Shown: one piece after another, positions 14,850 to 45,827 of the stretch
Numbering within the stretch: the stretch's first letter is position 1
Layout of the letters: each line of letters opens with the position of its first letter
NCBI GenBank assembly: GCA_030789695.1
Contig: CM061139.1
Span: forward strand, 202,465,641 to 202,529,640
Reading direction: 5' to 3'
DNA length: 64,000 nt
DNA from: Scilla litardierei
Lineage: Eukaryota; Streptophyta; Magnoliopsida; Asparagales; Asparagaceae
Notes under the pieces: generated by a model
Databases searched by the model: none
What the model saw: the letters and a program-made list of their open reading frames with translations, nothing else
Told to the model about the DNA's origin: nothing
Program-made: the position numbers and the translations under genes

Positions 14850-14994
14850 TGTTGTGAATGGAAATAACCAGAGTCGGTTAGGATTGCGGTATCTTAGAGA
14901 TACGCCCATATCTATGTATTCGATGTATCTACTCTCCTACCATGCCTATAAATAAAGGGCTGGGGGTTCCTCCCACAGTAGTTGATTCATAATA
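14850..14994 (+). repeat. 5' LTR of copia A
   Basis: 145 bp, start TGTTGTG. Contains CTATAAATAAAGG (about 14946), a good TATA box for the element's own transcription. Matches 31236-31381 with a few differences. Confidence 0.9.
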
Positions 14995-14995
14995 C

Positions 14996-15006
14996 GTTAT
15001 CAGCAC
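14996..15006 (+). other. Primer-site region of copia A (GTTATCAGCAC)
   Basis: Directly after the LTR is CGTTATCAGCACGA. Element E has the same TTATCAGCACGA immediately after its LTR, so the site is a family feature. The position is that of a primer site, but it lacks the TGG expected for pairing with a tRNA CCA end, and may pair with an internal tRNA segment. Confidence 0.55.
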
Positions 15007-15409
15007 GACTCTAAAAAAAATTTTCCACAAAATTTTCTTTCCGTTCGTTGTGAAGGCGAAGGCGAAGGCGAAGGCGAGACGGGAGATCCACGAGCGCGGT
15101 GCAAGGCTTCCTCCATCAAGGGTCGTCATCCGCGTAGGGCTTCGAGCAACCGTCGCTATATCCGGAGGACGGATATAGAGGTAAAAATACTAAAAACGAT
15201 ATTTTTAATCATACGTATGATTGCCCCTCCCCTAGATCTCGCAAGATCGTCATGGGGATTCATCGTCGCCTTGAAAACGACGGATTTTTCATCCCAAAAA
15301 CTCAATTTTTAGGGTAAAAACCCTAATTTTGAACCCTCCGACGGCTAGCCGCCACCGGACCCCCCCAAACCTCACCGGAACCTCCCCCTCGCCGGAAACC
15401 TCCCCTCCC

Positions 15410-15720
15410 CACCTTGGCCGCCTCCCCCTGCAGGGGGGCGGCCCCCGCCGCCGCCTCCCCCTGCAGGGGCGGCGGCCCCCCCGTGGCCGCCTCCCCCTGC
15501 AGGGGGGGCGGCCCCCCGAGGCCGCCGCCCCTGCAGGGGGCGGCCCCCGAGGCCGCCTCCCCCTGCCGGGGGGCGGCCCCCGCCGCCGCCCCTGCGGGGG
15601 GCGGCGGCCCCCGAGGCCGCGCCCCCTGCAGGGGGGGCGGCCCCCGCCGCCGCCTCCCCCTGCAAGGGGGGCGGCCCCCGCCGCCGCCCCTGCAAGGGAC
15701 GGCGGCGGCGCCGCCCCCCC
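15410..15720 (+). repeat. GC-rich palindromic array in the copia A leader
   Basis: Around nine units of about 30-36 bp built on CCGCCTCCCCCTGCAGGGGG followed by CGGCCCCCGCCG. Each unit is itself a palindrome around CTGCAG, so the RNA can fold in many equivalent ways. Leaders of elements E, D and F have comparable GC-rich arrays with other unit sequences. Confidence 0.85.
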
Positions 15721-15784
15721 AGCAAACCCTAAAACGGGTGAGGAAAAAAAAAGAAAGAAAAAGAAAAACGAAATCCAGATCTGT

Positions 15785-15884
15785 GCGCCTGAAGCCCACA
15801 GCAGATCTGTGGGCTTCAGGCCCACAGAATTCAAAAAAAAATCAGAGTCTGTGGGCCTGAAGCCCACAGACCTGTTGTGGGCTT
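15785..15884 (+). repeat. GTGGGCCTGAAGCCCAC palindromes (continue at 25480)
   Basis: Near-perfect palindromes of the type GTGGGCYTSAAGCCCAC recur here and continue at 25480-25560 on the other side of gypsy B, separated by A-rich spacers. Gypsy B entered the centre of one of them. Confidence 0.8.
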
Positions 15885-16164
15885 TGTAACGACTGCTTTT
15901 CATGTATCTGGATTTAATATAATATAATATATGTTTTGGTGGATTTTCTCCTCTTGTGTGGTTTTCGTCTCCGTAGTTTTCATTTTCGATCGATTCGTCG
16001 TATTTTCTCGATTCTTCCTTAGGATTGTCGATTTCGAAGTATGTCACTCGTGACGGACTTCATAACGGTCGTATCTAACTATTAGATCAAGCCTAGGGGT
16101 CTTAGGAATTGATCCCGGGGCCCCGCGCTCCGTATCGGAACTTTACTGTGCTCATTAGCCGGTG

Positions 16165-16626
16165 TAAGAAGGGCCACCGACCGACTAGATGACGATCCAG
16201 TCGGTCGGCAATCCTTCTTGGACCGACTAGTTTGCTTTCTAAATTTCTCAGGAGTTACTGTTTATCGTTAGTCGGTCTAAGAACGTTGGTTGACCGACTA
16301 GGTTGCAAACTAGTCGGTCAGCAATGCTTCTTGAACCGACTAACTCATCATATTATTTTTGTATCAGCTACTGTTTACTCTTAGTCGGTCTAAGAACGTT
16401 CATCGACCGACTAGATGCCAAACTAGTCGGTCAGTACTTGTTCATGGACCGACTAACTCTAGAATCCTATTTTCGTTCAGGAGTTACTGTTTGCACTTAG
16501 TCGGTCTGCGTTGGTCGACCGACCGACTAGTTGCCAAACTAGTCGGTCAGTGGTTGCTCTTTGACCGACTAACCAGTGTTAAAACCCTAATTTCTGGGCA
16601 GCCGTCAGCCCAACCTATTTATACCC
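16165..16626 (+). promoter_or_regulatory. TAGTCGGTC / GACCGACTA array upstream of an LTR TATA box
   Basis: About fifteen copies of the 9-mer TAGTCGGTC or its complement GACCGACTA, or one-base variants, are arranged in about four units of 113-116 bp. Each unit has an outer inverted pair and an inner hairpin such as GACCGACTAGTT / AACTAGTCGGTC with a 4-nt loop. The array ends about 40 bp before CTATTTATACCC (16615-16626). Copies are repeated in the other LTR (23374-23835) and in both C LTRs. Likely an enhancer or factor-binding array of the U3 region. Confidence 0.75.
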
Positions 16627-17832
16627 AACCCAAACGACTTCTTCTTCTCCAACACGACCCAAAACCCTAAAAACTTCCCCCTTCAGCCCCCATCTTCCTC
16701 CAAGCTTCATTTCTCCATTTCAAGCCCTAAATCCATCATCCAATCCATCCATTCACCCTATCTACCTCTCACCATCCCCAAAATCTCATCGAAACCCATC
16801 AAAATCCCCAAATCCCCCAAAACCCTAGTTTCCCCAAACTTCTCCATTTGCTTCCAGATCTGACCCTAGGGTTCCCCGGAGTGTTTCTTCCGCCTCCTCT
16901 CGGTAAGAAATCGATCTACCGTTGTTTTCATATCGTATTGTAATTTTTTATGAAACCCTAATAAAATACTTGTGTTTTGATGATTGTTCCCCATAACAGC
17001 GATTCCCCGTAAGCTAGCATCCGCGGAAACGAACTTTCGTAACCGTCATCCCCGGTGATAGGCAAGTGAAACTTGCATCTCTTGGTTTAGGCCATGTCTT
17101 AGGCCATTTCCCTTACTTTAGCGTAAAAGAGACTAAACGGTGAAAGGATAGCCGTTTAGGCGCCATTGACCTAGCTTGACAACGAAGCTTGGTCCGTCAC
17201 CCTCCTCATGCTCATATGTCACGTTTAAATTCCATTAACGGTACGCAATTATCTGTTCATGGCATTGCATAGTGATTATTTATCGTGATTGCGTAGCACA
17301 CGCTACAATCCCATATTTCCTGGCTCGTGTTCCAGAAGCGAGCCCTGTAGTTGGAAACCCCAACGCTCGAATGTCAACACACACTTATTTTCCTGGCTCG
17401 TGACCAGAAGCGAGCATAATGAGTTGGAAACCCCAACGCTCGTCACATGTGGGTGGGGTAAGAGATAAGCGGACTGAGCCCGAGTGGCTTGATCAGCCAC
17501 TCCGGCCAGCAGGTGAAGTCTCTAGTGTTTCAGTGTTGATAGTGATAGAGATAAACGAGCTGGACAGTAAGTGGACTCTCTATGCACTAAGTGTTAAGTG
17601 TTAAGTGCTAAGTGATAAGTGATAAGTGATAAGTGATAAGTGATTAGTGATTAGTGAATTGGTAGCTTTTGCTACACCGTGCATGCTTGTCACTCTTTCA
17701 AACTGTTGCATCATATTCAACTGTCATGCCATTGTTTAACAATTAAATGCTAGGTTGTTAGTCACTTTCAGTTTCCTTGCCCAAGTCTTTTTAGACTTGC
17801 TGACATGTGCCCCTCTCTCTTTTGGGTGACGC

Positions 17833-17940
17833 ATGTTAGACCTTGAGCCTGAGTTGCCAGCTGAGGGTGAGGTGTTTGCGGACGCCGAGCTTGAGCCCGT
17901 GTTGGACGGGGAGTACGTGGACACTGGGGACCAGTCCTAG
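17833..17940 (+). CDS. Short acidic ORF inside the LTR, 35 codons
   Basis: ATG at 17833, stop TAG at 17940, with an in-frame TGA two codons before the ATG. The product starts MLDLEPEL and ends EYVDTGDQS and is strongly acidic. The counterpart in element C is 36 codons, differs by substitutions and one codon-length change, and keeps both ends. The start context is poor and the nucleotide flanks are also conserved, so this could be a conserved DNA or RNA element instead. No function is known to me. Confidence 0.35.
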   Translation: MLDLEPELPAEGEVFADAELEPVLDGEYVDTGDQS

Positions 17941-18285
17941 TGTCTCCGTTGTGTTTTATTTTTGTTAGACAGTTGTTTTGTTATTGGTGCGTGGCACCCA
18001 TACTTATTTATGTCGTTGCTTTTGTTTGGCCTTGTTCTGGGCCCTTAGACTCTTTCTTTTAGCCTAGTGGCTTTTCTGTGATGTTGGATATTTTGTGGAC
18101 AAACTTTGGGATTGGTATTTCATATCCGTCTCATATTATTATTGTTGTTGTTTCGATTGCAATTACAGGGACCTGCTTATACTAAATTGACGCTTATCGG
18201 GTTTGGGGCTTCACCGCTCCACTCCCGTGCGGACCTTTTCACGTCTCGCCTCCATTTTAGGGAAGCGGGTCGTGACAGGTTTTAG

Positions 18286-18305
18286 TGGTGGCCCATGCAG
18301 GTCTC
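18286..18305 (+). other. Primer binding site of gypsy B, tRNA-Ile type
   Basis: TGGTGGCCCATGCAGGTCTC lies 8 bp after the LTR. Its complement ends in GGGCCACCA, that is, a tRNA acceptor end with CCA. As I recall the plant tRNA-Ile(AAU) sequence, it ends in the same bases through the T arm. Element C has the same first 18 bases at the same distance. Confidence 0.7.
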
Positions 18306-18419
18306 CTCTGTAACTGCGATTATCGGGATAACAATAATAATGCAAGATTGTCCAACAAATAAGTTCGACATCTGAGCCCTAAGCTGTGAGTCTAATTGTT
18401 TCGTTTTCTGCGTCATTAG

Positions 18420-19548
18420 ATGGCAGGAAGGCGAATCACCCGTGGCGGTGGTAGTGGTGCGCCCCCTCATGACGAGGAGCCTGAGCGGGAGCCCACTAAT
18501 GGAGAGATGATGCGGATGATGTTGCAGATGATGCAAGTTCAGCAGGGTGTGCTTCTGCAGGTGCAGAATGCTCCGGTGACTCGAGCTGCTCGGGTGGTGG
18601 AAGCCCCTCGCCCTGAGCCCGGGGCGAAGCAGTTCCGAGAGCTGGGTCCTGCGTATTTTGATGGAACCGAAGGTCCTCTAGCTGCTGATGAATGGATGAG
18701 GAATATTGAGGACAATCTGAAGATGTCCAAGGTCAACGAAGTTAGTTGGGTTGACTTGGCGAAGCGCCAGCTGAAGGATAACGCCAGGAATTGGTGGGAT
18801 GCTGAAGAAAAGATGTTGGTAGAGCCGGTCGTCTGGGCTACCTTCAAGGCCAGATTTGATGGTGAGTTCTTCCCGAAGGCTGCCAGGGAAGAGATGCTGC
18901 AGCGTTTTATCGATCTGAAGCAGGGGAACTCGTCGGTGGACATGTACCACCAGGAGTTCATGAGGCTAAGTCGGTTTGCACCAAAGATGGTGCGGGACGC
19001 TGAGGAGAGAGCTCAGAGGTTTCTGCAGGGGCTTGCTTCAGAGCTCCAGAGCTTTGTGACCTCTTCTGACCGGGAATCTTATCAGAAGGTTTTGGTCGCT
19101 GCCAAGAGGCAGGAGCTGCTTGTGAACCAGAGGAAGGGGTCTGTTGTTGGTGCTGTGAGGAGGCCCGTGGAACAGGCGAGAGCTGTGGTTAGACCTGGAT
19201 TCAGGCCGAACCCGCCTGTTCAGTTTAAGAGGCCAGGAGGGCCCGTTCGGAGGACTTGCAATTTCTGTGGCAAGGAGGGCCATATCAAGGAATCATGTAG
19301 GAAGTTCTTGGGGCAATGTATTATCTGTGGAGATCCCGCCCATGCTATCCGGGAGTGCCCGAGGTTGAGGCAACCTTGGAGGACACCTATTGCTGCCCCG
19401 CCGTTGCAGCAGAGAGCCCCGGTGCCCGCTGGTCGTGGGGTGCCCCTCGTTCCGCAGGGGCAGGCTTTTCGGCAGGCCGCTCCGCCGAGGAGGCAGGCAT
19501 TTCTGATGACTGAGGAGGAGGTTTTGGCCATGGATGAGGTCATTGCAG
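18420..19548 (+). CDS. Gypsy B gag (first exon of gag-pol)
   Basis: Structural capsid/nucleocapsid protein of the retrotransposon. ATG at 18420 directly follows a pyrimidine-rich stretch and CATTAG. 376 codons lie before a candidate donor GT at 19549; reading on gives a stop at 19580. Order: acidic low-complexity N-terminus, a gag capsid domain (about residues 75-210, with a WDLAKRQ-like [13 protein letters not shown] block), a basic linker and two CCHC zinc knuckles (CNFCGKEGHIKESC near residue 280 and CIICGDPAHAIREC near 299). The open frame is intact. The C-terminal VIAG runs into the protease domain if the 111-nt intron is removed. Confidence 0.9.
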
Positions 19549-19659
19549 GTAACTTTCGATCTAGATTGTTCCTTCCTTAATTAATTGATTGTTAAATTAT
19601 GTGAATGCTCGTGTATGGTGTTGCTAGAATAAGATTTGATCGATTAGACTGTTTGTTAG
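19549..19659 (+). other. Candidate intron 1 of gypsy B gag-pol (111 bp)
   Basis: Donor CAG|GTAACT, acceptor TTGTTAG|GT; joining gives VIA-G-VVLV across the gag/protease border in frame. Element C has the same two boundaries (56176 to 56063, 114 bp). It contains in-frame stops, so unspliced RNA would end after gag. Confidence 0.65.
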
Positions 19660-22600
19660 GTGTGGTTTTGGTTTGCATGTTCCCTGCCCGAGTCCTCTTT
19701 GACTCAGGTGCGTCAATGTGCATTTTGGCCCAGAGCTTCGTGGAGAAGCATTCCTTGTCGACGTCCCCTCTCTCCAAGAGTTGGAATATCGTCACAGGGA
19801 ATGGAGTAGTCACGGTGCATCGTGGGTGCAGTCCTTGCTCTGTGGTGGTTTGTGGACATGAGCTTTATGCTGATTTTATTGTCCACAACATCACTAACTA
19901 CGATGCGGTCTTTGGGATGGATTGGCTTGCGAGCTTCTATGCTACGATCGACTGCAGGAGGAAGAAGGTGGTGTTCGAGATTCCCGGACATCCAGTGTTC
20001 GAGTTCAGTCGTGGTAGCCGTTCGCTTGGTCCTGTCAGATTTTGGGCCAGGCCGGTGGAGGCTGTGGCTATGCAGATGGAGCTGGAGTGGCCAGCTGTGG
20101 TGCGAGATTTTGGTGACGTCTTCCCCGAGGAGATGTCTGGTTTGCCGCCTGATCGAGCTCTGGAATTTTCTATCGATCTTGTGCGCAGCCGATTTCGAAG
20201 GCGCCGTATCGTATGGCACCTGCAGAATTGGAAGAGTTGCGGAAGCAGTTGGATGAGCTGTTGCAGAAGGGTTATATTAATCCTAGCGTGTCTCCGTGGG
20301 GAGCACCGGTGTTGCTGGTTAAGAAGAAGGATGGTTCGCGTCGCATGTGCGTGGACTATCGGGAGTTGAATGCGGTGAACATTAAGAATAAATACCCGTT
20401 GCCTCGCATCGATGATATTTTTGATCAGCTTGGAGGTTCGAGGGTGTTTTCTAAATTGGATTTGAGGAGTGGTTACCATCAGTTGAAGGTGAAGAAGGAT
20501 GATGTTCCGAAGACAGCGTTCAGGACGAAGTATGGACACTATGAGTTTGTGGTTATGCCCTTTGGCGTAACTAACGCGCCCGCAGTTTTCATGAATCTGA
20601 TGAACCTGATTTTCTACGACTTTTTGGATAAGTTTGTCGTTATCTTCATCGACGACATTCTGATCTATTCGAAGTCGGAGGAAGAGCATGCATCGCACTT
20701 GAGGACAGTATTGGAAATCTTGAGGAAGCATCGTTTGTATGCTAAGTTTTCGAAGTGCGAGTTTTGGCTGGATCGAGTTGCTTTTCTGGGGCATGTGGTG
20801 TCTGGAGATGGTATTTCTGTGGATCCCGAGAAGATTCGGGCCATCAGGGAGTGGCCTGTTCCGTCGTCTGCGTCTGAGATTCGGAGTTTCCTTGGACTTG
20901 CTGGTTACTATCGGCGATTCATTAAGGACTTTTCTCGTATTGCTGAGCCGATGACCAGGTTGACGCGGAAGGATGTTGCTTTTGTTTGGTCGGGTGATTG
21001 TGAGGGTGCTTTTGATGTTCTGAAGGAGAGGTTGACGACTGCCCCTATTCTTGTCGTGCCTGATCGCAGCGGTGGATTTGAGATCTTTTGCGATGCTTCT
21101 GGCAAGGGTCTCGGTTGTGTGTTGCATCAGCATGGGCATGTTGTGGCGTATGCGTCTCGTCAGCTTAAGGTTCATGAGAAGAATTACCCGATGCATGATT
21201 TGGAGTTGGCTGCCGTTGTGTTTGCTCTTAAGATTTGGAGGCACTTCTTGCTGAGTGAGAAAGTGAAGATTTTCACCGATCACAAAAGCTTGAAGTACAT
21301 TTTCACTCAGAAGGAGCTCAACATGCGACAGCGTCGATGGTTGGAGCTTATGGCGGATTATGATATTGATTTGCAATATCACCCGGGCAAGGTGAATGTG
21401 GTTCCAGATGCTTTGAGTAGGCTTCCAGCGGTGATGATTTTGACCTCGCAGTGGAGATTGCAGCAGGATTTTTGCGAGTCTGGCGTGGAGATTGTTCTTC
21501 CTGGGGAGGCTTCTTCGTTGATGTACATGCAGGTACAGTCGACGATCGTGGATCGGATTAAGGCCGGCCAGGCTGAGGATCCGAAGCTGGTGAAGATTCG
21601 GGAGCAGGTGGAAGCCGGTCTGCGGACTGACTTTTTGATTCATGAGGATGGCTCGCTGAGGTTTGGAGCCAGGTTGTGTGTGCCTGCTGGGGATATCAGA
21701 GAGGAGTTGATGGTGGAGGCACACAGTTCGCCGTATTCTGTGCATCCTGGTGGCACCAAGATGTACCAGGATCTTCGTCTAAATTATTGGTGGCATGGTA
21801 TGAAGAGGAGTGTGGCTCGGAGTGTAGCCAAGTGCTTGGTTTGCCAGCAAGTGAAGGCGGAGCATCAGCGTTCGGCCGGGTTGCTACAACCGCTTCCGAT
21901 TCCGGAGTGTAAGTGGTAGCACATCACTATGGATTTCGTGACTGGACTGCCTCGGAGTCTGAAGCAGAATGACGCGATTTGGGTGATCATAGATCGGTTG
22001 ACCAAATCTGTGCATTTTATTCCGTTCCGAGTGGGACAGTCCACTGAGGCGCTAGCAAGGAGATATATGGAGGTAAAATTCTTTTACTCTCCGTTTTTAT
22101 TTCCTTTTCCTAGCTTAGATAGTGATGTAACGTGAATCGTGCAGGAGGTTGTGCGACTTCATGGAGTCCCCGTGAGTATCGTGTCGGACAGAGACACGAG
22201 GTTCACATCTCAGTTCTGGCAGAGTTTGCAGAAGAGCTTGGGTACGCGTCTGAGTTTCAGCACGGCGTACCATCCGCAGACGGATGGCCAGTCCGAGAGG
22301 ACGATTCAGATTTTGGAAGACATGCTGAGGGCGTGCATGTTGGATTTCAAGGGTTCGTGGGAGGACCATCTGCATTTGGTGGAGTTCTCTTACAACAACA
22401 GCTTCCAGGCGAGTATTGGCATGGCGCCATTCGCCGCTCTTTATGGGAGGAAATGTCGATCGCCATTGAGTTGGGATGACGTTGGAGATCGGGAGTTGTT
22501 GGGACCTGAGATGATCGTGGAGGCCGTGGATATCGTCAGGAATATTCGGGAGAGGTTGAGAATTGCTCAGGACCGTTTTAAGCATTGGGCGGATGCTAAA

Positions 22601-23047
22601 CGTCGTCCTTTGGAGTTTCAGCCGGGCGACCATGTGTTCTTGAAGATTTCCCCGAATCGTGGTGTGATTCGTTTTGGGAAGCGTGGAAAGTTGAGCCCGC
22701 GATACATTGGACCGTTTGACGTTTTGGAGAGGGTTGGCGAGGTAGCTTATCGCTTGGCCTTGCCGCCGTCTTTGGAAGGAGTTCACAATGTTTTCCATGT
22801 GTCGCAGCTTCGTCGATACATTAGCGATCCGTCTCATGCGGTGGATTTTTCGGAGATTACCGTTCGCCCCGATATGACGTATGACCAGCATCCAGTGCAG
22901 ATTCTGGACAGGCGTCAGAAATCGCTTCGAAACAAGGTTGTCAATCTTGTGAGGGTGATGTGGCGACACGGTTCACCTGGAGAGTCTACTTGGGAGAATG
23001 AGGATGAGATGCGAGAGAGTTTCCCACTTTTGTTTCCGGACTCGTGA
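19660..23047 (+). pseudogene. Gypsy B pol: protease, RT, RNase H, integrase (broken)
   Basis: Protease with intact DSGAS (Asp codon at 19701). A 7-nt deletion near 20175 shifts the frame between protease and RT. RT has an intact catalytic FIDD (20645-20656). RNase H follows (FCDASGKG near 21092, TDHKSLKY near 21279). Integrase has the HHCC knuckle (about 21740-21865), then a nonsense TAG at 21917-21919 where element C has CAG, then the catalytic core (MDF, SDRD, DGQSER). A chromodomain-like tail with VRVMWRHG and STWENEDEM comes before the stop at 23047. A candidate 72-bp intron is at 22073-22144. The two lesions make it non-autonomous. Confidence 0.9.
22073..22144 (+). other. Candidate intron 2 of gypsy B, in integrase (72 bp)
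   Basis: Donor GAG|GTAAAA, polypyrimidine-rich interior, acceptor GTGCAG|GAG; both ends fall between codons. Removing it joins RYME to EVVRLHG within the integrase core. Element C has the same boundaries (53642 to 53572, 71 bp). It contains an in-frame stop. Confidence 0.7.
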
Positions 23048-23082
23048 GTTTTTGGAAATTCCGAGGACGGAATTTTTATTAA

Positions 23083-23093
23083 GTTGGGGAGGA
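23083..23093 (+). other. Polypurine tract of gypsy B
   Basis: GTTGGGGAGGA immediately before the right LTR; the position and purine content suit plus-strand priming. Confidence 0.7.
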
Positions 23094-25479
23094 TGTAACG
23101 ACTGCTTTTCATGTATCTGGATTTAATATAATATAATATATGTTTTGGTGGATTTTCTCCTCTTGTGTGGTTTTCGTCTCCGTAGTTTTCATTTTCGATC
23201 GATTCGTCGTATTTTCTCGATTCTTCCTTAGGATTGTCGATTTCGAAGTATGTCACTCGTGACGGAATTCATAACGGTCGTATCTAACTATTAGATCAAG
23301 CCTAGGGGTCTTAGGAATTGATCCCGGGGCCCCGCGCTCCGTATCGGAACTTTTCTGTGCTCATTAGACGGTATAAGAAGGGCCACCGACCGACTAGATG
23401 ACGATCCAGTCGGTCGGCAATCCTTCTTGGACCGACTAGTTTGCTTTATAAATTTCTCAGGAGTTACTGTTTATCGTTAGTCGGTCTAAGAACGTTGGTT
23501 GACCGACTAGGTTGCAAACTAGTCGGTCAGCAATGCTTCTTGAACCGACTAACTCATCATATTATTTTTGTATCAGCTACTGTTTACTCTTAGTCGGTCT
23601 AAGAACGTTCATCGACCGACTAGATGCCAAACTAGTCGGTCAGTACTTGTTCATGGACCGACTAACTCTAGAATCCTATTTTCGTTCAGGAGTTACTGTT
23701 TGCACTTAGTCGGTCTGCGTTGGTCGACCGACCGATTAGTTGCCAAACTAGTCGGTCAGTGGTTGCTCTTTGACCGACTAACCAGTGTTAAAACCCTAAT
23801 TTCTGGGCAGCCGCCAGCCCAACCTATTTATACCCAACCCAAACGACTTCTTCTTCTCCAACACGACCCAAAACCCTAAAAACTTCCCCCTTCAGCCCCC
23901 ATCTTCCTCCAAGCTTCATTTCTCCATTTCAAGCCCTAAATCCATCATCCAATCCATCCATTCACCCTATCTACCTCTCACCATCCCCAAAATCTCATCG
24001 AAACCCATCAAAATCCCCAAATCCCCCAAAACCCTAGTTTCCCCAAACTTCTCCATTTGCTTCCAGATCTGACCCTAGGGTTCCCCGGAGTGTTTCTTCC
24101 GCCTCCTCTCGGTAAGAAATCGATCTACCGTTGTTTTCATATCGTATTGTAATTTTTTATGAAACCCTAATAAAATACTTGTGTTTTGATGATTGTTCCC
24201 CATAACAGCGATTCCCCGTAAGCTAGCATCCGCGGAAACGAACTTTCGTAACCGTCATCCCCGGTGATAGGCAAGTGAAACTTGCATCTCTTGGTTTAGG
24301 ATATGTCTTAGGCCATTTCCCTTGCTTTAGCGTAAAAGAGACTAAACGGTGAAAGGATATCCGTTTAGGCGCCATTGACCTAGCTTGACAACGAAGCTTG
24401 GTCCGTCACCCTCCTCATGCTCATATGTCACGTTTAAATTCCATTAACGGTACGCAATTATCTGTTCATGGCATTGCATAGTGATTATTTATCGTGATTG
24501 CGTAGCACACGCTACAATCCCATGTGTCCTGGCTCGTGTTCCAGAAGCGAGCCCTGTAGTTGGAAACCCCAACGCTCGAATGTCAACACACACTTATTTT
24601 CCTGGCTCGTGACCAGAAGCGAGCATAATGAGTTGGAAACCCCAACGCTCGTCACATGTGGGTGGGGTAAGAGATAAGCGGACTGAGCCCGAGTGGCTTG
24701 ATCAGCCACTCCGGCCAGCAGGTGAAGTCTCTAGTGTTTCAGTGTTGATAGTGATAGAGATAAACGAGCTGGACAGTAAGTGGACTCTCTATGCACTAAG
24801 TGTTAAGTGTTAAGTGCTAAGTGATAAGTGATAAGTGATAAGTGATTAGTGATTAGTGAATTGGTAGCTTTTGCTACACCGTGCATGCTTGTCACTCTTT
24901 CAAACTGTTGCATCATATTCAACTGTCATGCCATTGTTTAACAATTAAATGCTAGGTTGTTAGTCACTTTCAGTTTCCTTGCCCAAGTCTTTTTAGACTT
25001 GCTGACATGTGCCCCTCTCTCTTTTGGGTGACGCATGTTAGACCTTGAGCCTGAGTTGCCAGCTGAGGGTGAGGTGTTTGCGGACGCCGAGCTTGAGCCC
25101 GTGTTGGACGGGGAGTACGTGGACACTGGGGACCAGTCCTAGTGTCTCCGTTGTGTTTTATTTTTGTTAGACAGTTGTTTTGTTATTGGTGCGTGGCACC
25201 CATACTTATTTATGTCGTTGCTTTTGTTTGGCCTTGTTCTGGGCCCTTAGACTCTTTCTTTTAGCCTGGTGGCTTTTCTGTGATGTTGGATATTTTGTGG
25301 ACAAACTTTGGGATTGGTATTTCATATCCGTCTCATATTATTATTGTTGTTGTTTCGATTGCAATTACAGGGACCTGCTTATACTAAATTGACGCTTATT
25401 GGGTTTGGGGCTTCACCGCTCCACTCCCGTGCGGACCTTTTCACGTCTCGCCTCCATTTTAGGGAAGCGGGTCGTGACA
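23094..25479 (+). repeat. 3' LTR of gypsy B
   Basis: 2386 bp, nearly identical to 15885-18277. It has the same 9-mer array, TATA box, duplicated block and short acidic ORF (25035-25142). It has one fewer GATAAGT unit. Confidence 0.95.
25035..25142 (+). CDS. Short acidic ORF in the 3' LTR of B
   Basis: Same 35-codon frame as at 17833-17940, without change in the reading I made. See that entry for the evidence and doubts. Confidence 0.35.
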   Translation: MLDLEPELPAEGEVFADAELEPVLDGEYVDTGDQS

Positions 25480-25484
25480 GGCTT

Positions 25485-26511
25485 CAGGCCCACAGATTTC
25501 AAAAAAAAAACAAGCCTATGGGCCTGAAGCCCATAGGCCGACTGCGGGCTTCAGACCCGCATGCTGTTTTATCTGGAAAAAAAAAATTGGGGGAGGCAAA
25601 GGCTATTAACAAGCCTTAAAAGGCAACTTGCTAGCCTAAAATTAATTTAAAAAGGGGTTTTAAGGGCAAAATATTCGTGAAAAATCACGGTAAATTACGG
25701 GACAAATATCGGGCAGGCGAGGACTTTTTGGGGATTCTTGTGGGGGCTTTTGGGATGATGAGGAAAACTTTTTCCTCTGACAAAGAAAATGTTTATTTTG
25801 GGCTCTTAATCAATTTAATTGATTAAACCCACTTACTTTACAACCTTTGCATTGTAATGATTTTTTCTGCAAAAATCATATTTACATGCTTTACACCTCT
25901 GGTATATTCTGTTGGATATTATATGCGTGGTTGTGCATTGTATTTAAAACTTAATAATTAGGAAGATCCTGCGACCGCTCTGCCGTTAGTAACGTAACCT
26001 AACGGTGTATGACGTTGCCCAGTGATCCAATAATTATTAAGTGTTTAAATTATTTATCCATCTCTGCGAATATTAAATGCCTATGATGCCTGTGATGAAA
26101 ATGTCTGATGAAAATGTTGATGAGCACAATATTTCTGCATGAATTGCTAAATGTGGTTTTTGGATCGGCCGTTTAGTCCCACAGTTTATTTCCCGCACTT
26201 TTCTTTTATTTTTGAGAGAAATTGTAGTGAGGAATTTATGTAAATGTCAAAGAAAGAAGACCAACTTCCACGGAGACGGAGGCCACGCTTGAAGATGGAG
26301 ATATCATATGGGACCCACGGGGTTTCCAAAATTGTATTTTCATTTTCTTTAAGCTGCAAATTTGTATAATTTGGACTGTGGACTTTTTTGGACTCTTTCT
26401 TGTGGGACTGGCCGATCCACACATTTAGTTTTTCGTTAAATATTGCCTCCGCATGAAAATGTTTTCTCTGATTAAATATTAATTCATGCATGTTTGTGCT
26501 CTGCTAGATAA
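25485..26511 (+). other. Leader of copia A, second part
   Basis: Continues the palindromic array, then AT-rich leader with a conserved folded block (25943-26049) and further words shared with element E, such as TTTTTGGATCGGC and TTTTTGAGAGAAA. Gag starts at 26512. Confidence 0.7.
25943..26049 (+). ncRNA. Conserved folded leader RNA of copia A
   Basis: The core from GGAAGATCC to CCAATAATT is about 90 percent identical to 40240-40312 in element E, while the DNA around it has diverged. Outer helix: 25943-25960 with 26031-26049 (18 pairs with one bulge). Inner hairpin CCGTTAG (25983-25989) with CTAACGG (25999-26005). Short helix GCGAC (25971-25975) with GTTGC (26014-26018). Three base pairs of the outer helix differ between A and E and all stay paired. 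It lies about 460 nt before gag, a suitable place for a packaging, dimerisation or translation signal. The role is inference. Confidence 0.6.
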
Positions 26512-27471
26512 ATGGCTAATATTGCAAGCGTTAATTTTGAAGTACTGGAAGCATCAGGTAGAAACTATCTAAGCTGGCAGCTAGATGTAAAGTTTCACCT
26601 GCGGGCAAAGTTCCTCATCGTTGTTGTGACTGAAAAAGAAAATGTTAGCGATATAGAGAAGGCGCAAGCCATCACCTATATTCGCCGCCATGTGGACAAG
26701 ACCTTAAAGGCTGAATACCTTACGGTCGAAGATCCACTTGCGCTATGGACTGCCCTTGAGGACAGGTATAAACATCAGAAAGATGTTATACTCCCAAGGG
26801 CATGATATGAGTGGGAGAACATGAAACTACAGGACTTTAAATCCATTGCTGAGAACAACTCAGCACTTTTTAGCATCACGTCACGCCTGAAGTTGTGTGG
26901 TGAGAATGTCTCAGAAGATCGCATGCTGGAAAAGACGTATACGTCCTTCCATGAAAAAGATGCGATACTCATGCAGCAATACCGTGAATATAGGTTCACC
27001 AAGTATTCTGAGCTGATGTCATGTTTACTCATGGCTGAGCAAAACAGAGAGCTTCTTCTCGCCACTCACAATATGCGCCCTCCCGGCACTGCCCCCCTAC
27101 CAGAAGCTCACCATTCCTCTTCCTTCAAAAAGAAGAGAGATAATAAAAGAAAAAGAAAGACCGCAGAAGGGGGGGTCAACAGAAAAATGCCAAGGGCCAT
27201 GCACAGCAGCAGCGAAATAATGAAAGTAAGCGGAAGTTCACGTGGCATAGAAATGACAAAAATGATTCACCCCCACCCAAGAGGGAATGGGAAGACCAGT
27301 GCCATAATTGTGGCATGAAAAGCCACTGGTCCAAAATGTGCCGAACTTCGCAGCACCTCCAGGATTTGTATAAAGAGAACAAGTAAAATAAAGCTGAAAC
27401 AAACCTGATGACCTCTGATGCTCCAGTCAAATTTTTAGCTGACAACTTTGAAAATGATGACTTGCTTGATT
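26512..27471 (+). pseudogene. Copia A gag
   Basis: ATG at 26512 opens a UBN2-type copia gag (MANIASVNFEV, NYLSWQLDVKFHLRA, TLKAEYLTVEDP). A TGA at 26803-26805 (LPRA*YEWEN) interrupts it; the frame resumes with LQDFKSIAENNSALF. Frameshifts occur in the basic linker. A CCHC knuckle CHNCGMKSHWSKMC is readable at about 27301, followed by HLQDLY and a terminal LLD stop near 27470. Element E has its stop at the identical codon. Pol follows after a non-coding gap. Confidence 0.85.
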
Positions 27472-30846: not shown

Positions 30847-31235
30847 TTTACAGATCAGGGGGAGTTGACAGAATTTGTACTCTTTTTCCCTTAGCTATGG
30901 TTTTTCCCACTGGGTTTTCCATAGCCAAAGGTTATAACGAGGCAAATCACATCAACTCTGGATCCCGAAGTATCCACCCCTCTGTGACGCTCAGAATCCA
31001 GAAGTATTCATGAGCAGAGTCACTTGTACAAATCAGGGGGAGTTAAAGAGCGTTTGCACTCTTTTTCCTTAACTATGGTTTTTCCCACTGGGTTTTCCAT
31101 AGATAAAGGTTTTAACGAGGCAAACCTCACCAACTCAGGATCCTGAAGTATCCACCCCATGTGAGACTCTTATTACACTCAGAATCCCGAAGTACTCTTG
31201 AGCGGAGTCCACACCTATGGCTGGATAAGGGGGAG
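30847..31235 (+). repeat. Duplicated 3' motif with polypurine tracts, copia A
   Basis: Two tandem copies of about 175 bp, each with CAGGGGGAGTT, then CTCTTTTTCC..TA, then GGTTTTTCCCACTGGGTTTT and AACGAGGCAA, at about 30852-30950 and 31034-31125. The true polypurine tract (AAGGGGGAG, 31227-31235) abuts the LTR. Element E has the same duplication at 45375-45610. Confidence 0.8.
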
Positions 31236-31381
31236 TGTTGTGAATGGAAATAACCAGAGTCGGTTAGGATTGCGGGTATCTTAGAGATACGCCCATATCT
31301 ATGTATTCGATGTATCTACTCTCCTACCATGCATATAAATAAAGGGCTGGGGGTTCCTCCCCCAGTAGTTGATTCATAATA
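31236..31381 (+). repeat. 3' LTR of copia A
   Basis: 146 bp, matches 14850-14994. Followed by TCTGG, the presumed second copy of the target site. Confidence 0.9.
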
Positions 31382-39495: not shown

Positions 39496-39607
39496 TGTTA
39501 TAAACGGGTTTTTGGTGGGCCTACCCGTTAGTGGGTATCCATCTATTATGTAACCCTACTACTATAAATACAGTGCTATGGACTCCATAGCCACCACGTT
39601 TACAACA
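39496..39607 (+). repeat. 5' LTR of copia E
   Basis: 112 bp with ACTATAAATACAG (about 39561) as a TATA box. TTATCAGCACGA follows the end by two bases, as in element A. Confidence 0.93.
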
Positions 39608-40769
39608 TGTTATCAGCACGATCTCATTATTGAGCCGAACTTCTGCCGACGGACAGACGCAACGCGAACGGGCTTTCTTCACCGAACGTCGCTAGATCCG
39701 GCGGGTAGGATCTAGATGTAACTATCTCCCCTAGATCTAAAATTTAATGTGCACATATGTTTAGATCCAATCTCTTGGATCAATTGTTTAATGAAGTTTT
39801 CATCGTTTTTATTGATAAAAATCTGTCTTTTTCAATAAAAAACGACTTTTTGGAGATTAAAAAATGATTTTTTTACTAAAAATTGGATTTTTATCCCCCA
39901 AAAACCATTAAACCCTAGGGGATCTATTCGCCGGAGTGCGAACCCCCCTAAACTCGCGCCGCCGCCGCCGCCCCTTTGCAGCTTGCGGCAATCCCCCCCC
40001 CCCCCCCCCTGCAGCGGCGGGCCCCCCTGGCGCGCGCGCAAGCCCTAAAACCCTAGCCGCCTGAAGCGGCAATCCGCGCGACCAAAAACCCTAACTAGGG
40101 TTTCACCCCGAAAATTCACTATTTTCAAACATTTTTCAGATTTAATTCGATTTTTTTCGCTATAATCTGGTCAAATTACATGTGATTTCATTCAACGCTT
40201 TTTATTCGGATTATATGATTTTTACACGTTTAAAAATTAGGAAGATCCTGCGACCGCTCTGCCGTTAGTCAACTAACCTAACGGTGTATGACGTTGCCTA
40301 GTGGTCCAATAATTTTTAAACGAAAAATCTTCATTTTCCATTATAAACTGTTTGTGATGATTAAATTACCTGTAATGAATAAACTGCCTGTGATGATTAA
40401 ATGCCTGCGGCATTTTATCCGCCTGCGACGAATGTTAAATATTTGCTGTGTTTTTGGATCGGCTAGTTATCACCATTTTCTCTTTCATGCATTATTTCCT
40501 TTTTGAGAGAAAAATGTAGTGATGATAATTTTGTAATATTACAAGACCGGCAAACGCCTCAAGAAGATGAAGGACCATTCCAGAAGAATAGGGGCCCCAC
40601 GGGGGTTCCCGAGTTGTACTTTCATTTCTTTTTGGGACTGTATGGACTGTAATTAATTTGGTGATTAGCTGATCCACGCAGCAAATATCTGTGTCTGAAG
40701 TGCTTAATTCTTTATTTCTCTGTGAAAATATCTAATTATTGCCTATCTTTTAACATGCTAGAGTAATAA
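39608..40769 (+). other. Leader of copia E
   Basis: 1.16 kb non-coding. It contains the primer-site region (39610-39620), a short GC-rich part (39955-40070) with a run of 17 C at 39993-40009 followed by CTGCAG, and the conserved folded block at 40227-40322. Confidence 0.75.
40227..40322 (+). ncRNA. Conserved folded leader RNA of copia E
   Basis: Counterpart of 25943-26049. Outer helix 40227-40239 with 40310-40322 (13 pairs), then an internal loop and a further TTTTT/AAAAA helix outside. Inner hairpin CCGTTAG (40262-40268) with CTAACGG (40278-40284). GCGAC (40250-40254) with GTTGC (40293-40297). Relative to A, three outer-helix pairs are changed on both sides. About 450 nt before gag. Confidence 0.6.
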
Positions 40770-41729
40770 ATGGACAAAATTGCGAGCGTCGATTTCGACG
40801 TTTTGGATGCTTCAGGCAAGAACTACTTAAGCTGGCAGTTGGACATAAAATTCCAACTGCGAGCACAGGGATTGAGCCACGCCATCGCTGTAGGCGATAA
40901 GGTTTCTGATATAGATAAAGCGAAAGCAATTATCTATATCAGACGCCATATCGATCGGACCCTGAAGGCCGAGTACCTCACGGTGGAAGACTCGTATGAG
41001 TTATGGACCGCCCTCGAGGATAGGTATAAACATCAAAGAGATGTTATACTTCCCCGAGCGTGATATGAATGGGAGAATCTCCGTCTCCAAGACTTTAAGT
41101 CTATTGCCTAGTACAACTCGGCACTCTTTAGCATCACCTCACGCCTGAAGTTGTGTGGTGAAAAGGTGATGGAGGAGCGCATGTTAGAGAAGACGTATAC
41201 ATCCTTCCACGAGAAGGATGTCATACTAATGCAACAATATCGTGAACGAAAGTTCACGAAATACTCAGAGCTTCTCTCATGCCTTCTGATGGCAGCGCAG
41301 AATCGTGACCTTCTTCTGGCCATCCATAACTCACGCCCTGCCGGCACTGCTCCTGAGCCTGAAGCGCATCACAGCTCCTCCCAGAAGAAGAGGAGCAACT
41401 TCAAAGGCAAACCCCAGAAGGGTAAGGCGATGAAGAAGCAGGCTAGAGGACCCCCTCCCAGAAGCAACAATGAGGGGAAGAAGAAGAAAAATGTGTGGAA
41501 GAGAAAGGACGACGGCCAGACATCTGCCCCCAGAAAGGACTAGGAAGATAAGTGCCACAGGTGTGGCATGACTGGACACTGATCCAGGAATTGTCGGACT
41601 CCACGCCACCTGCAGGACTTGTACAAAGCGAGCTAGAAGCAAGCTGAGACAAACCTGGTGGTTCAAGAAGACATGGCACCAATCAGGTTCATCGCTGAGG
41701 ACTTCTCAAACAATGACCTGCTCGACTGA
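40770..41729 (+). pseudogene. Copia E gag
   Basis: UBN2-type gag: MDKIASVDFDVLDASGKNYL, RTLKAEYLTVED, SITSRLKLCGEKV, KYSELLSCLLMAAQNRDLL, a basic linker, then CCHC knuckle CHRCGMTGH*SRNC and the terminal NNDLLD stop at 41727-41729. Internal stops: TGA at 41061 (LPRA*YEWEN, shared with element A), TAG at 41108, TAG at 41541, TGA inside the knuckle and TAG near 41633. Each is one transition from a sense codon. Pol begins separately at 41892 after a 160-nt AT-rich gap that ends AAAATAG. Confidence 0.88.
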
Positions 41730-45369: not shown

Positions 45370-45715
45370 CTTATCAGGGGGAGTTAATGTAGTGATGTAC
45401 TCTTTTTCCTTGGCTACTGGTTTTTCCCACTGGGTTTTCCATAGACAAAGGTCTTAACGAGGCAGCCACATCAACTCTGGATCCAAAAGTATCCACCCCT
45501 GATGTTATCCATCGATCAGGGGAAGTTATAGAGACTTGTACTCTTTTCCCTTAGCCACTAGTTTTTCCCACTGGGTTTTCCTTGGCAAAGGTTTTAACGA
45601 GGCAAGTATTCTTAAACTTAGGGATCCAGAAGTATCCATAGACCCATGATTAGATAAGCTCTATGAACCCTGAAGCGTTCATTACGGCTTACAACAATGG
45701 ATGGATAAGGGAAAG
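45370..45715 (+). repeat. Duplicated 3' motif and polypurine tract, copia E
   Basis: Two copies of the block with ATCAGGGGGAGTT / ATCAGGGGAAGTT, TTTTTCCCACTGGGTTTTCC and TAACGAGGCA at about 45376-45462 and 45515-45605. Then GGATAAGGGAAAG directly before the LTR. Confidence 0.8.
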
Positions 45716-45827
45716 TGTTATAAACGGGATTTTGGTGGGCCTACCCGTTAGTGGGTATCCACCCATTATGTAACCCTACTACTATAAATACAGGGCTATG
45801 GACTCCATAGCCACCACGTTTACAACA
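45716..45827 (+). repeat. 3' LTR of copia E
   Basis: 112 bp; a few differences from 39496-39607. Confidence 0.93.

Follow-up and report, generated by a model that had tools for sequence, protein, structure and literature searches.

Compensated RNA helices in two structured domains of the leader of related Copia elements in Scilla litardierei

Two structured RNA domains, H1 and D2, were found at corresponding places before gag in two related Copia elements, A and E, within the 64,000-nt stretch of DNA analysed here (Scilla litardierei, contig CM061139.1; henceforth "the window"; all coordinates are window positions, and the RNA features, LTRs and gag starts lie on the + strand). From the comparison of these two sequences, H1/D2 is regarded with high confidence as a selected structured RNA, in a lineage of Copia elements that has numerous relatives among eudicots. 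An earlier note on this DNA had proposed a cis-acting RNA of the element at H1, and this proposal was well supported by sequence constraint, a compensated helix, a fold common to both copies, and the place of the structure close to gag.

The 5′ LTRs of copia A (14850–14994, 145 nt) and copia E (39496–39607, 112 nt) have their 3′ counterparts at 31236–31381 and 45716–45827, respectively; the LTRs have the form TG..ATA in A and TG..ACA in E, and both 5′ LTRs are followed by a primer-site-like GTTATCAGCACGA (at 14996 in A and 39609 in E). The LTRs are very short, and the leaders measure about 1.9 kb in A (insertion excluded) and 1.2 kb in E. Pfam domains above the cut-off were detected in two E ORFs (rve, gag_pre-integrs, Pol_BBD; SH3_retrovirus), and a third E ORF matched RVT_2 below the cut-off (25.6 vs. 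31.6 bits). With gag-pol domains between LTRs and a primer site, A and E were classified as Copia LTR retrotransposons, A being classed through its DNA similarity to E (67–71%) because three of its ORFs matched no Pfam family. A protein search with the E integrase ORF yielded 1137 proteins at an E-value of ≤ 0.001 among 2340 candidates, and an organism name was available for 23 of the 120 matches listed (22 eudicots and 1 bacterial MAG). The gag start codons, read from the sequence, are at 26512 (A) and 40770 (E).

The leader of A is split into a 5′ and a 3′ part by a Gypsy element (15885–25479), which lies outside the RNA and is flanked by the target repeat GGCTT (15880–15884 and 25480–25484); H1 is located in the 3′ part. 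Palindromes of the CTGAAGCCCACAG / CTGTGGGCTTCAG-like type are repeated on either side of this insertion (15780–15880 and 25480–25580), and none were seen by eye in the E leader. The 5′ leader of A also harbours a GC-rich array of CCGCCTCCCCCTGCAGGGG-like units (15411–15739), and a smaller GC-rich stretch occupies a similar position in the E leader (about 39960–40070). Both elements also contain, towards their 3′ end, two tandem copies of a stretch in which GGGGGAGTT-like and TTTTTCCCACTGGGTTTTCC motifs occur (30853–31158 in A, 45373–45638 in E).

H1 is a hairpin spanning 25949–26042 in A and 40227–40322 in E. In A, the outer helix pairs 25949–25960 with 26031–26042 (12 bp), followed inward by an internal loop (GGAA/CAA), a helix of 25965–25975 with 26014–26027, a second internal loop (CGCUCU/GUAUGAC), and a helix of 25982–25989 with 25999–26006 that carries a 9-nt apical loop. 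The MFE fold of E is alike, with an outer helix of 13 bp (−31.5, z −5.57 in A; −31.0, z −4.45 in E). Only in A can the outer helix be extended, to 25942/26050 with one bulged base. Between the 12-bp helix and the gag ATG lie 469 nt in A and 448 in E; the earlier note had given about 450 nt.

The block of roughly 90% identity described in that note was recovered as 92.2% identity over 90 nt (A 25951–26040, E 40230–40319; E-value 1.8e-32). In the leader alignment, with gaps scored as mismatches, 60-nt windows inside the block had identities of 0.83, 0.92, and 0.77; the 16 windows of the same size that start at A 26031 or beyond had 0.33–0.65, or 0.42–0.78 when gapped columns were dropped. Across long coding segments, A and E are 67–71% identical (70% for a clean segment of pol), but two ungapped coding blocks attain 77% over 300 nt and 81% over 236 nt, so that the H1 block is outstanding but not alone. 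The inner arms of H1 differ at 2 of 61 nt, and fourfold sites of pol differ at 19 of 46 positions and are identical at 27 (one clean segment of 174 codons). A wider codon comparison (pS 0.67; 84 of 170 fourfold sites identical) was dropped, as it included stretches of A that were aligned out of frame.

Pairing in H1 was kept where the two copies had diverged. The outer helix had been described as perfect for 12–13 pairs in both copies; all 12 pairs do form in A and E, whereas the 13th is present in E only (C-G) and is A.G, and therefore broken, in A. Three differences within the helix were confirmed as compensated, each having changed on both strands (A-U/G-C, C-G/U-A, and U-A/A-U), which gives 3 compensated and 0 broken pairs out of 12. 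Under a random-substitution null with the same number of substitutions, all 12 outer pairs were kept in 523 of 200,000 draws; with the 13th pair added, 6,686 of 200,000 draws equalled or beat the observation. The inner helices GCGAC/GUUGC and GCCGUUAG/CUAACGGU were conserved without change, as had been noted before, and the sole change among the inner pairs was from U-A to U-G. When the partners were slid by 1–3 columns, 18 to 47% of the cells remained paired, compared to 100% in the unshifted arrangement. A shuffle of dealt letters equalled the observation in 119 of 500 cases, a control that has no power at two rows. Both internal loops are invariant between A and E, and the apical loop varies, with 3 of its 9 bases differing (UAACGUAAC vs. 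UCAACUAAC).

Thermodynamic stability was rejected as the chief argument for H1. Other 107-nt windows of the leader and gag reached z-scores down to −5.4 (A) and −7.4 (E), i.e., lower than the H1 windows (the window starting at 25950 had a z of −3.4), and because of this the stability of H1 alone is unexceptional. The sense strand was less stable than the antisense strand in A (−31.5 vs. −33.2) and more stable in E only. The case for H1 rests on conservation and compensation.

The second and larger domain, D2, lies outside the coordinates given in the earlier note, which had missed it, and was found by folding the 3′ leader of each copy separately. It spans 26139–26436 in A, with a long-range helix of 26139–26182 and 26402–26436 and a U-rich bulge beside UGGAUCGGC, and 40436–40691 in E, with a helix of 40436–40472 and 40659–40691 and the same kind of bulge. 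The z-scores of the MFE folds were −8.08 (A) and −6.44 (E), a level that none of 200 shuffles reached in either copy, and mean helix probabilities were 0.80, 1.0, and 0.97 in A and 0.87 and 0.82 in E. The sense strand was more stable than the antisense strand in both copies (−109.1 vs. −83.5 in A, −85.8 vs. −67.7 in E). The two MFE folds enclose a GAGAGAA hairpin and a CCCACGGGG hairpin; in E, the latter is firm, whereas the former occurs in the MFE fold only (mean probability 0.42, not in the centroid).

The centre of the D2 helix, UGGAUCGGC paired with GC[C/U]GAUCCA, is common to A and E. Outward of it lie a U-rich bulge of 4–5 nt and then a run of 10 bp in A and 12–13 bp in E; in this run the copies agree at no more than 5 of 10 positions per strand. 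With the strands anchored on the common centre, A and E each form all 28 pairs, of which 14 are identical, 6 carry a single change, and 8 a double change, i.e., none is broken and 8 are compensated, more than in H1. Among 50,000 base shuffles of the 30-nt flanks, the observed run lengths were reached 58 (outer) and 5 (inner) times in A, and 16 (outer) and 191 (inner) times in E. Under plain MAFFT alignment from A to E, 7 of 15 pairs were broken in the outer third of D2 and 6 of 8 in the inner third, and these parts of the domain therefore draw their support from the alignment anchored on the centre and from the folds computed independently for each copy.

As a control, MFE helices of the 5′ part of gag were projected by plain alignment, which broke 43 of 163 pairs from A to E and 51 of 156 from E to A. 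In H1, the same procedure broke 0 of 20 pairs of the two inner helices and 1 of 13 pairs of the E outer helix (E to A); the extended outer helix of A had 6 of 19 pairs broken, with six of its seven additional pairs absent from E. Taken over its full length (gapped pairs excluded), the leader had 50 of 147 (A to E) and 42 of 144 pairs (E to A) broken, i.e., no fewer than gag, and the claim was therefore limited to H1 and, with the caveat given above, D2. Since RNAalifold produced 6 double changes and 0 of 69 broken pairs on the 5′ part of gag, pairs chosen by this program were excluded as evidence. Windows of low z occur in this part of gag at 26700–26831 in A (about −5.1) and at 40836–40992 in E (−5.9 to −6.6). 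One gag hairpin (A 26766–26791) was unchanged in 10 of 10 pairs between the copies, which may reflect constraint on the protein.

The comparison with Rfam that the earlier note had suggested was carried out, and no family matched H1. At the gathering threshold, Rfam 15 gave 0 matches in the whole window, and none of the 16 matches up to an E-value of 10 in 25000–27000 overlapped H1 of A; H1 of E was compared at the gathering threshold only. ARAGORN detected 0 tRNA or tmRNA genes in the window. Readings as a miRNA precursor, a tRNA-like structure, or a known ribozyme were rejected as being without support from Rfam and ARAGORN. A covariance model of H1 scored 117 bits on A and 116 bits on E; among the 66 matches listed, the runner-up had 18 bits (E-value 0.05), and no third copy of H1 was therefore detected in the window.

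Three exact H1 patterns were tried against a collection of viral contigs, with 0 matches each. A 21-mer match among genome contigs, on a Rhizobiales contig (L001), covered 21 bases only and was read as chance; one further stretch of 17 nt on this contig was similar to H1 of E (E-value 0.53). The element protein matched two weak loci in the viral contigs (L002 and L003), which were rejected as carriers of H1, as only 10–18 nt were alike (E-value 0.15 or worse), and a search of the viral contigs with a 19-row integrase alignment found none. Among the literature matches listed, mainly non-subscription papers, none dealt with this structure or reported a leader intron for a plant Copia element. 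The main text of a 2025 review on host factors of plant LTR elements does not mention a packaging signal, stem-loop, or secondary structure (PMC12786077).

The leaders of both copies carry splice-like sites at matching places, though of middling quality. Downstream of the primer site, a 5′ hairpin is followed by a donor-like GUAA: in A, the hairpin (CUAUAUCCG/CGGAUAUAG, 15156–15178) is followed two bases on by GUAAAAAU at 15181, and in E, the hairpin (CUAGAUCC/GGAUCUAG, 39692–39715) is followed by GUAACUAU at 39718. One pair of this hairpin is compensated between A and E, which by itself is weak evidence, as 18,206 of 200,000 draws of the null did as well. The hairpin folds with a probability of 0.99 in A; for E, it is obtained when 41 nt are folded and is absent from the MFE structure of 39600–39760. 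Ranked with an approximate donor matrix, the GT beside the hairpin was 1st of 22 in A (14995–15884 only) and 2nd of 43 in the E leader, where its score was low (0.8 bits) and the first rank was taken by a site within the loop of the same hairpin. At the other end, an acceptor-like CUAG directly precedes gag (26506–26514 in A, with AG at 26506–26507 and the gag ATG at 26512; 40760–40772 in E, with AG at 40760–40761 and the gag ATG at 40770); by crude weights, it ranked 5th of 22 AGs of the 3′ leader in A and 1st of 20 in E.

Between H1 and gag, 18 AUGs were counted in A and 11 in E, compared to 9.4 and 8.6 expected from composition, so that the excess is clear in A only and E is near expectation; given these AUGs, ribosomes that scan an unspliced RNA would rarely be expected to arrive at gag. 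Splicing would remove 29 (A) and 18 (E) AUGs between donor and gag. From the TATA motif to the donor, there are no AUGs in A and two in E (39578 and 39607), of which the one at 39578 lies 16 nt past the TATA motif and probably precedes the transcription start site. A leader intron that holds H1 and D2 and is kept only in genomic RNA is thus plausible.

A conserved structured RNA in the leader near gag, as would be expected of a Copia or retroviral packaging signal, is present in both copies. The invariant internal loops of H1, set in a helix that changes by compensation, and its free apical loop would fit recognition by a protein more readily than a kissing interaction. Of the functions that the earlier note had offered (packaging, dimerisation, or translation), packaging or sorting is the best remaining one, and dimerisation through a kissing loop as well as translation by simple scanning are disfavoured. 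We give a role of H1/D2 in packaging or in sorting of the genomic RNA a little less than an even chance. In such a role, a protein, most likely the Gag of the element, would bind the internal loops of H1, which are presented by a helix of freely changing sequence, and H1 and D2 would jointly label the full-length genomic RNA as the one to be packaged and reverse-transcribed. Both domains would lie inside the leader intron, with the donor beside the 5′ hairpin and the acceptor CUAG right before gag; RNA that has been spliced would lose H1 and D2 and serve as gag mRNA, and RNA that has not been spliced would retain them and serve as the genome. The full version of this model, i.e., a retrovirus-like leader with a donor hairpin by the primer site and a two-domain covarying signal within the intron, in which splicing alone decides between mRNA and genome, is put forward tentatively and is rather improbable as a whole. 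In practical terms, H1 and D2 are exact and short targets, with internal loops that are unchanged although the coding DNA differs by about 30%. Should they be a packaging mark, Gag of the lineage could be tried directly against H1/D2, and elements with decayed proteins might be recognised and classified by the motif.

Other functions can be set against packaging. H1 and D2 might help ribosomes to reach gag on unspliced RNA, by internal entry or by a shunt over the AUG-bearing leader of the kind used by plant pararetroviruses. The leader is indeed long, structured, and supplied with AUGs, the structured leader of CaMV is described as both shunted over and host to a packaging signal (PMC5902531), and in A a 12-codon ORF (25923–25961) ends at the inner end of the 5′ strand of the H1 outer helix. 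E, however, has no short ORF ending there (an ORF from 40215 enters H1), so that a short ORF ending just before the stem, whose conservation would be expected for a shunt, was seen by reading at H1 of A only, and further AUGs stand between D2 and gag, four in A (26453–26490) and one in E (40755). Such help to ribosomes is considered unlikely. In a role like that of retroviral constitutive transport elements, H1 or D2 could also be a nuclear export element for unspliced RNA, with a host factor reading the internal loops. These loops are invariant within a covarying stem, and an intron-bearing RNA leaving the nucleus would presumably need such an element; against this, no Rfam family was matched at threshold, and export is given a small probability, below that of a role in ribosome access.

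Retroviral RNAs dimerise through hairpins near their 5′ end, and H1 could accordingly act as a dimerisation signal through its apical loop. BARE2 reportedly keeps conserved dimerisation and packaging signals (PMC3735527). Against a kissing loop of this kind stand the 3 differences among the 9 bases of the apical loop and the location of the constraint, which is in the arms and internal loops. No palindrome was seen by eye in the apical loop of E, and likewise by eye the loops of the two copies (UAACGUAAC, UCAACUAAC) do not form a conserved self-complementary sequence. We consider dimerisation by H1 very improbable. The similarity of A and E might finally be without function for the element, the product of a shared foldback insert, gene conversion, or a small-RNA precursor. 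A foldback shape with conserved arms and a diverged loop would be in line with this, as would a comparison limited to copies within the window. Yet the place is the same in both elements, the block stops near the base of a helix that is itself altered by compensation, a 6/7-nt internal loop is a poor fit for plant miRNA precursors, and no Rfam match overlapped H1 of A up to an E-value of 10, which leaves a non-functional origin with hardly any weight. Packaging or sorting of genomic RNA is retained as the preferred role.

To our knowledge, the yeast element Ty1 has no leader intron. It belongs to the Copia superfamily like A and E, and its 5′ region is structured and favoured by Gag, with a packaging region proposed at +230–580; a difference lies in its Gag-preferred 5′ pseudoknot and its palindromes, neither of which was noticed in H1 (PMC8396678). 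Of the motifs described for Sireviruses, those compared here are located beside the polypurine tract, within the LTR, and ahead of the env-like gene, unlike H1 and D2 (PMC2829016). The pararetroviral leaders of CaMV and RTBV resemble the leaders of A and E in being structured and in having short ORFs, a donor site, and a packaging signal (PMC5902531); they form a large stem-loop with a shunt, whereas the leaders of A and E consist of separate domains and have no conserved short ORF before the stem. The retroviral Psi of MMTV maintains its shape through long-range pairing, a likeness for which no homology is claimed, and the long-range pairs named for MMTV are U5/gag and U5/U5 (PMC11449360). 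For LTR retrotransposons other than BARE, sorting between translation and packaging was described as little known as of 2013 (PMC3735527). In barley BARE1, according to the same paper, 104 nt are spliced out at the end of gag and not in the leader, and the RNA pools of BARE are distinguished by promoter and cap. BARE1 and BARE2, likened here by description and not by sequence, are nevertheless close to the proposal for A and E as plant Copia elements reported to have conserved packaging and dimerisation signals and separate pools of translated and packaged RNA (PMC3735527).
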